Assembly: GCF_024128855.1 (NCBI RefSeq)
Contig: NZ_JAMYDV010000002.1
Location: 186,001 to 250,000 of the forward strand
DNA: 64,000 bases
Direction: 5' to 3'
Source of the DNA: Rhodovulum tesquicola
GTDB lineage: Bacteria; Pseudomonadota; Alphaproteobacteria; Rhodobacterales; Rhodobacteraceae
Shown here piece after piece: positions 34,501-39,131 of this stretch (the stretch's first letter is position 1; each line of letters begins with the position of its first letter). The notes below the pieces were generated by a model, which saw only the letters and a program-made list of their open reading frames with translations, did not search any database and was not told the DNA's origin. The position numbers were made by a program, and so were the translations under genes.

Positions 34501-34531
34501 ATCGGACTTCCATCGGACTTCCATCGGACCT
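34501..34531 (+). repeat. Short tandem repeat, 11-base unit
   Basis: ATCGGACTTCC occurs twice in tandem and is followed by a third partial copy ATCGGACC and TTTTT. It lies between the tRNA and purM. It may be a regulator site or a slippage product. Confidence 0.6.
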
Positions 34532-37576: not shown

Positions 37577-37712
37577 GCGCGGCGGGGACGGGGCGCACTT
37601 CACGTTTGCATGAGATTTCTGCGCTGCGGCGGTTTCCCGGCGCCCATGCCCTTGCCGCGAGGGCCGTGCGCATCACCTTTGGGGCAGTATTGGGCGAACA
37701 CGGGAGTCTGCC

Positions 37713-38141
37713 ATGGCCGACAAGAAGAATGACCAGTTGATCGACGACCCCACCCCGCTGTCGAGCCGGTTCAACTGGCCGCTTCTGAGCAGTCGCAAAT
37801 CCGCGGTCAATCTGGCGGGGGTGGGCCCCACGCCGTTCTCGTCGGCGCTGGGCCTGTCCTTGCTGTCCAGCCGGTCGGGCACGGGGGCGATGGAACTGCG
37901 CACCGGCGATCCGACGCCGTTTTCCAGCCGGTTCAACTGGCCGCTCCTCAGCGAGCGCCGCAGCAATGTCGAGCTGTCGACGGGGGATCCCACGCCGCTG
38001 TCCTCCAAGCTGAACCTTCCGCTGCTGAGCGACCGGGCGACCCTCGCGGGCGGTGAGGTGTCGGGCGGCGGCTCGGGCCTGCCGGATGGAGCGTTCGGGC
38101 GGTTCATCCGTCAGATCATCACGGGCGAGGTCCAGAAATAG
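37713..38141 (+). CDS. Uncharacterised protein with four PTP-[LF]-SS tandem repeats
   Basis: The 142-residue product contains four repeats starting near residues 12, 38, 66 and 92 with 26-28 residue spacing. The consensus is [DG]PTP[LF]SSx[FL][NG][WL][PS]LLSxRx, followed by a short linker ending L-x-[TG]-G. A Gly-rich linker and an amphipathic tail (GAFGRFIRQIITGEVQK) finish it. There is no signal peptide, cysteine or known domain. GGGAG precedes the ATG and an intrinsic terminator follows, so it looks like a genuine single-gene unit. I do not recognise the family. Options include a structural or scaffold protein, or a self-assembling repeat protein. Confidence 0.8.
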   Translation: MADKKNDQLIDDPTPLSSRFNWPLLSSRKSAVNLAGVGPTPFSSALGLSLLSSRSGTGAMELRTGDPTPFSSRFNWPLLSERRSNVELSTGDPTPLSSKLNLPLLSDRATLAGGEVSGGGSGLPDGAFGRFIRQIITGEVQK

Positions 38142-38147
38142 GCCGCA

Positions 38148-38163
38148 CCCGGTCCGGACCGGG
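38148..38163. repeat. Perfect 16-base palindrome after the repeat-protein gene
   Basis: CCCGGTCCGGACCGGG is a perfect palindrome seven bases after the stop at 38141. It may add to termination or be a protein site. Confidence 0.6.
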
Positions 38164-38174
38164 ATATCTGGATG

Positions 38175-38201
38175 GCCCGTCGGCTTCGGCCGGCGGGCTT
38201 T
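38175..38201 (+). terminator. Intrinsic terminator of the repeat-protein gene
   Basis: GCCCGTCGGC and GCCGGCGGGC form a ten-pair stem (one T-G pair) with a TTCG tetraloop, followed by TTT. It lies 34 bases after the stop. Confidence 0.8.
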
Positions 38202-38205
38202 GCAC

Positions 38206-38235
38206 TTGAAGCGGCGGCGGCTGCGGCGATATGGT
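38206..38235 (+). promoter_or_regulatory. Candidate promoter
   Basis: TTGAAG (38206-38211) and TATGGT (38230-38235) are separated by 18 bases, directly after the terminator. A strong hairpin with a T-run (38243-38274) begins about eight bases downstream, so any transcript would meet it at once. Confidence 0.4.
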
Positions 38236-38759: not shown

Positions 38760-39131
38760 ATGACCATGACCCTTCCGGCTCTGACGAGCCTATTGACGGC
38801 TGCAACCGCGCTGACGCTTGTGGCCAATCGCGCCAGAAAATGGCTCAGCACGCTTGATGTGATCGCCCCCGCGCCGACCTCGGCGGCCACGCCGATGCCG
38901 AAGGCAACCACCATCCCTGCGGCCAGCCCGCGTCGGCGCAAGGCGAACCTGCCCGATACAACCTGCGAAGGGTGCGGCACCCCGATCCCCGGCAACGAGA
39001 CGCTGTGCCCGCTTTGCGCCCGCAAGCAGGCGGCGGCGAAGGGCGCGGGCTGGACCACGCTCTGGCACTGGCTGTTCACCATCGCGGTGCTGACGGTGCT
39101 GTATGGCGGGGCCTATCTGCTGACGCCGTGA
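38760..39131 (+). CDS. Small zinc-ribbon membrane protein
   Basis: The 123-residue product has an Ala/Thr-rich N-terminal half, a zinc-ribbon-like CEGCGTPIPGNETLCPLC, and a C-terminal membrane helix (LWHWLFTIAVLTVLYGGAYLL). AGGA lies seven bases before the chosen ATG; a longer in-frame start at 38652 has no site. The order ribbon-helix suggests a cytoplasmic zinc finger tethered to the inner membrane. The function is unknown. Confidence 0.6.
   Translation: MTMTLPALTSLLTAATALTLVANRARKWLSTLDVIAPAPTSAATPMPKATTIPAASPRRRKANLPDTTCEGCGTPIPGNETLCPLCARKQAAAKGAGWTTLWHWLFTIAVLTVLYGGAYLLTP

Follow-up and report, generated by a model that had tools for sequence, protein, structure and literature searches.

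The window, that is, the whole stretch of 64,000 nucleotides that was analysed, carries a small gene for a tandem-repeat protein. The features of the gene and its flanks are listed below:

37702..37706, + strand: Shine-Dalgarno-like GGGAG, seven bases 5' of the ATG, read in the sequence
37713..38141, + strand: repeat-protein gene (type C paralogue), 142 aa, open reading frame from ATG to TAG; orthologues 97% and 72% identical over the full length; dN/dS about 0.3
37746..37823, + strand: repeat unit 1 (DPTPLSSRFNWPLLSSRK...), read in the sequence
37824..37907, + strand: repeat unit 2 (GPTPFSSALGLSLLSSRS...), 28 residues, diverged, read in the sequence
37908..37985, + strand: repeat unit 3 (DPTPFSSRFNWPLLSERR...), read in the sequence
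37986..38057, + strand: repeat unit 4 (DPTPLSSKLNLPLLSDRA...), end approximate, read in the sequence
38085..38138, + strand: C-terminal tail DGAFGRFIRQIITGEVQK, predicted short amphipathic helix (AlphaFold2 helix 127-137; tails of the type B and C paralogues are alike)
38174..38202, + strand: GC-rich hairpin with a short U run, possible terminator (fold z -3.07 for 38140-38215)

The first unit begins about 12 residues into the protein, and the four PTP[LF]SS units are spaced by 26, 28 and 26 residues. Units 1 and 3 are near-identical (82% at the DNA level). The original prediction of four near-identical units was correct in number but a little strong in wording, since units 2 and 4 have drifted. 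The array is non-random, with a self-similarity score of 143, whereas 1000 shuffles scored no higher than 51. The reading frame is real and under purifying selection: it is kept in the relatives, where a loss of the frame had been named as evidence against the prediction, with 138 of 142 residues identical in the orthologue from genome G012 and 101 of 142 in that from G007 (dN 0.24, dS 0.74 against the window gene). A Rhodovulum steppense protein is 97% identical to the window protein.

The translation contains no cysteine, as had been claimed. Structure prediction of the array, one of the checks suggested earlier, was made with AlphaFold2 from an alignment of two sequences and gave a mean pLDDT of 48 with a single helix at residues 127-137, in line with the amphipathic tail claimed before. 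Because the alignment was so shallow, this is weak evidence of disorder; judging from this low-confidence model, the protein most likely has no globular fold.

The GGGAG motif bears out the earlier claim that the gene has its own ribosome-binding site. The claimed terminator fared less well: a GC-rich hairpin with a short U run does follow the stop codon, but a strict terminator scan at the gene found none. No sigma-70-like promoter was found for the gene. An RNase D-like gene (Pfam PF01612 and HRDC) precedes it, the other neighbouring ORFs are unrelated, and in the neighbouring stretch that was read the gene lies away from the puc operon. Elsewhere in the window, an 11-bp unit, ATCGGACTTCC, occurs in 2.6 copies without mismatch at 34501-34529, between tRNA-Met and an ORF read as purM, and a 123-aa ORF at 38760-39128 combines a zinc-ribbon-like CxxC...CxxC stretch with a hydrophobic C-terminus, its Pfam matches being below the cut-off only.

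The window protein matched no Pfam or NCBIfam family, and its one match among PDB sequences was meaningless (1whk, E 0.14). The protein was unmatched in the plasmid and phage collections, and the idea that it came from a phage or plasmid was abandoned; four relatives searched against the plasmid collection were not matched either. Among the open-access papers found in literature searches, none names the repeat family in its title or the start of its abstract. The earlier statement that no family matches thus holds for Pfam and NCBIfam, but the protein is no orphan, as the family occurs in 16 Rhodovulum genomes and has relatives in puc operons.

The repeat family in Rhodovulum

The family was present in all 16 Rhodovulum genomes in multiple copies of four paralogue types, which were assigned from neighbours and termini, without a tree, using gene calls on the fetched stretches. 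LHC genes were likewise found in all 16. Neighbouring genes were named by reading unless confirmed by Pfam, as was done for LHC, PUCC and NDK in L035, TetR in L036, LHC and PUCC in L115, and PUCC in L143. Type A and the LH2 antenna genes pucBA (then pucC) are arranged head-to-head in 15/16 genomes, and ndk flanks type A on the non-puc side in 14 of those 15. G004 is the exception: its A-like gene has another location, and next to its pucBA (L121) no divergent member was called. Type B occurs in 14/16 genomes, with a TetR-type gene called nearby in 12/14 and another gene, coding for about 160 aa, in 13/14. Type C, to which the window gene belongs, occurs in 9/16 genomes with four or five units at a location that changes between species; its tail is [FI][IF]RQI[IV]TGEVQK-like, and similar tails are common to types B and C. 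Type D is short and basic (14/16 genomes). The window gene and types B and D were not found beside puc in the stretches read.

The number of units in relatives, a count also suggested earlier, ranges from 2 to 5 across the Rhodovulum proteins, and their spacing is mostly 26-27 residues (80/91). Ser stands at the same place in 109/109 distinct units, for which the search pattern admitted only S or A.

The motif TGTN12ACA, which we take to be the PpsR consensus, was found upstream of 14/15 puc-divergent type A genes (not L050), versus 46/629 other upstream regions, and was found upstream of neither the window gene nor type B nor type D. Since the intergenic site is common to type A and pucBA, it may serve pucBA only. 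Only two FnrL-like sites, both weak, turned up in the upstream regions scanned. Type B proteins in L070, L057 and L045 carry a second, TNPQVETKTF-like tandem repeat ahead of the PTPLS units. An upstream block of type B (AGACGCGGCGAAAA..CA.CTTG.CC...G.GCATAA...CCAT; e.g. L036 9595-9794) is largely conserved in 5 aligned regions and may be a promoter.

Relatives outside Rhodovulum

A two-unit repeat profile, A1, was built from 30 Rhodovulum fragments. In 394 Rhodobacteraceae genomes (393 genera) it matched G000, G003 and one spurious sequence; first-look candidates were only partly scored in many of these genomes, and the outcome, members in Rhodovulum only, proved an under-count. A match in G353 (L087, A1 E 8.4e-4) was dropped as a single S-S-x-L-G-W-A-L-L stretch without an array. 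Among 385 Alphaproteobacteria genomes, 26 of which have Photo_RC (G000 included), seven were matched besides G000. With G000 excluded, matches fell in 6/25 Photo_RC-positive versus 1/359 negative genomes (Fisher p 2.8e-7). The one matched genome without detected Photo_RC, G505, has a completeness of 84%, and its match lies next to pucA. All seven class matches adjoin pucBA and/or pucC, and the repeat-protein gene (X) is placed as follows:

pucB-pucA-X-pucC: L115, L117
X directly before pucC: L114, L118
X after pucBA: L116
X divergent from pucBA: L120
X convergent with pucA: L119

The X proteins begin with an N-domain of some 100 residues and continue with C-terminal PLSSxxGLPLLS-like repeats, of which G502 has about one plain unit only. 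The N-domain is absent from the window protein, and types A, B and D are also too short to hold it.

From the seven class relatives a further profile, A3, was built and searched in 80 genomes, namely the 25 Photo_RC-positive class genomes, G505, 34 Rhodobacteraceae drawn from the 164 Photo_RC-positives of the family outside Rhodovulum, and 20 class negatives. It matched 19/80 genomes and 0/20 negatives. Seven of the 19 matched by construction, two (G751, with two matches, and G737) were dropped as N-domain or unrelated sequences without PLSS repeats, and ten were new. All ten lie in puc operons: seven are arranged pucB-pucA-pucC-X, one pucB-pucA-X-pucC and two pucBA-X-pucBA-pucC. The seven Rhodobacteraceae found in this way matched mainly over the N-domain, and A1 had missed them in whole genomes. 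They were used to build profile A4, which was searched in 80 further Rhodobacteraceae genomes that were absent from the construction of A3 and A4 and had earlier been used with A1. A4 matched 13/40 phototrophic genomes versus 0/40 without Photo_RC (p 7.6e-5), and pucC was directly 5' of all 13 best matches.

Altogether, the relatives found outside Rhodovulum lie within or next to the puc (LH2) operon in 30/30 genomes, with plain repeats in 29; G268 (L165), whose repeats are doubtful, is counted among the 30. No relative was found in the 60 chosen genomes without reaction-centre genes (20 class genomes with A3, 40 Rhodobacteraceae with A4). Most of the Photo_RC-positive genomes tested had no detected member (16/25 in the class, 27/34 and 27/40 in the Rhodobacteraceae). 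Two Rhodobacteraceae genomes, G200 and G250, have a second puc-linked copy. These copies, L166 (at a contig edge, no pucC found) and L167 (in tandem with L154, the G250 copies being close together), were left out of the 30.

In several genomes with the repeat protein at puc, PucA is C-terminally extended to 112-117 aa, and several of these extended PucA contain an LPDGTTA-like stretch. The extended PucA genes are:

L143, 9499-9837
L147, 9614-9967
L149, 8901-9251
L120, 9281-9634

The kinship between the repeats of the two groups was examined in both directions. An HMM was made from six of the seven non-Rhodovulum class repeat regions and searched against 8277 ORFs, taken stop to stop from the window and from 50 loci of Rhodovulum, and every match below E 0.01 was a family member, two of them being recognised as such only when their sequences were read. 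As the loci had been picked for containing family members, this result tests specificity and not frequency. The window ORF was matched with E 6.7e-10 among the 8277 ORFs, and the window protein outscored all 15 puc-adjacent type A proteins. For the Rhodobacteraceae, 16 C-terminal parts were compared (without L154, L160, L162 and the correct-strand L165). A1 gave 12/16 of them a higher score than any of 800 shuffles (top E 1.7e-7), and the class-repeat HMM only 2/16, so the repeat link to these relatives is weaker. Some of their arrays have a 26-residue rhythm and a like core, e.g. the RMANWPIPLISRRKP units in L149 and L164. The repeat Ser is not universal among the relatives, as L134 has G-D instead. 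The puc linkage of the relatives and the reciprocal profile match place the window protein in a light-harvesting-associated tandem-repeat family, under no name found so far.

A proposed role at the antenna

Since its relatives adjoin antenna genes, the window protein is predicted probably to cling to antenna rings. Each unit of 26-28 residues, with the Ser of PTP[LF]S, a Trp or Leu and the PLL core, would dock on an alpha-beta antenna subunit from the cytoplasmic side. The four units would form an extended ribbon along successive subunits of the LH2 or LH1 ring, its end being anchored in the membrane by the amphipathic helix of the C-terminus. Bound in this way, the ribbon would make the ring more stable and could hold additional bacteriochlorophyll, on the model of LH2-gamma in Rhodopseudomonas palustris. 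We infer the docking, the shape of the ribbon and the choice of ring, and pigment ligation by the conserved Ser is speculative. The original prediction of a repeated binding or assembly surface is partly supported: a repeated binding surface is still the best reading, and the units are conserved, but the protein is no orphan. On balance, we favour docking at the antenna as the function of the window protein.

The same gene contexts could also be read in terms of antenna biogenesis, with an assembly or regulatory factor whose repeats hold nascent alpha-beta polypeptides or PucC and which is no lasting subunit. The relatives lie directly after the assembly gene pucC in 20/20 Rhodobacteraceae best matches, one longer relative has an N-domain similar to the stress domain YflT (PF11181, E 0.0034, sub-cut-off), and LH2 assembly is greatly reduced by interruption of PucC according to the excerpt available of PMC4949548. 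However, in 10 class genomes X has no fixed place: it may lie between pucA and pucC or between two pucBA pairs, or be divergent or convergent, so that its link is with the entire puc operon, and the Rhodovulum members have no N-domain. We regard such a factor as rather unlikely.

It is less probable still that the type C paralogue has left photosynthesis for another membrane or stress role, with the repeat chemistry alone kept. The window gene does follow an RNase D-like gene among unrelated ORFs, its place varies between species, it occurs in just over half of the genus's genomes and it has no PpsR-like site. Yet its product scores above every puc-adjacent type A protein on the puc-linked repeat profile and shares its tail with type B. 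As for a recent selfish or low-complexity expansion without function, the variation of unit number within the genus is what it would predict, but it is already contradicted by the conserved frame and motif, the dN/dS ratio, the presence of the family in every Rhodovulum genome and the puc linkage of the relatives, and we give it hardly any credence.

Comparison with known systems

YflT proteins differ from the window protein in that the latter has no such domain. The pucBACDE cluster is named in the accessible part of PMC9231093, and pucDE expression is reported in that of PMC4634722. In Rhodobacter capsulatus, pucD and pucE come after pucC, the position that the relatives take in the Rhodobacteraceae, and the likeness is one of position; the window gene, by contrast, is not at puc. 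R. capsulatus PucE has been reported as a gamma chain of LH2. The puc operon of a Rhodovulum is described in PMC9230146 as including a gene of the PucC family, and the available portion of that paper mentions no repeat protein.

The closest comparison is with LH2-gamma of Rhodopseudomonas palustris (7zcu chain S), for which the sections available of PMC9618040 describe an extended ribbon round six of the nine alpha-beta units, a Ser in each repeat that ligates an extra BChl, and gamma-bound BChls 27.6 A apart. The sequence kinship of the family to gamma is weak. L102 (G652), a puc-operon relative, matched 7zcu_S in the PDB with E 0.0062, the only one of four distinct puc-linked queries to do so; neither the L132 protein, profile A3 nor the L134 protein matched LH2-gamma. 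The window protein and A1 had no match to 7zcu_S at E <= 10, and the only PDB match of A1 was a SUMO entry (E 0.58). When the units of gamma were permuted 500 times, L102 beat all permutations; the score of the G529 protein was reached by 3 and that of the window protein by 61, so the latter fails this control. A search of 27 genomes with a fragment of gamma gave the L102 gene as the sole match (E 0.0043), and as the same gene was found again this is not independent evidence. Because the other queries miss gamma, working like gamma is proposed here as a hypothesis, not as membership.

The units also differ, gamma having six of about 16 residues with S-G-x-P-L and the window protein four of 26-28 with the Ser spaced differently. 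Like LH2-bound gamma, the window protein is a short polypeptide of tandem repeats that probably lacks a globular fold, and every unit repeats a Ser and a core of the form G-x-P-L-[LI]. A stretch of 26 extended residues would be long enough for one 27.6 A step with slack, or perhaps for two. LH2 serves as a standard light-harvesting model. The available text of PMC9618040 treats gamma as peculiar to one genus, its authors reporting it in Rhodopseudomonas only. We tentatively suggest, at somewhat less than even odds, that a widespread and so far unnamed class of antenna accessories exists in the Alphaproteobacteria, comprising unfolded ribbons encoded with LH2, of which gamma would be one distant or convergent example. 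Rhodovulum would have lost the N-domain, and its four paralogues could dress LH2 or LH1 rings and tune their pigment. If these proteins are true antenna subunits, a ribbon component has been overlooked in many purple bacteria, and pigment number and ring stability need to be re-examined there.
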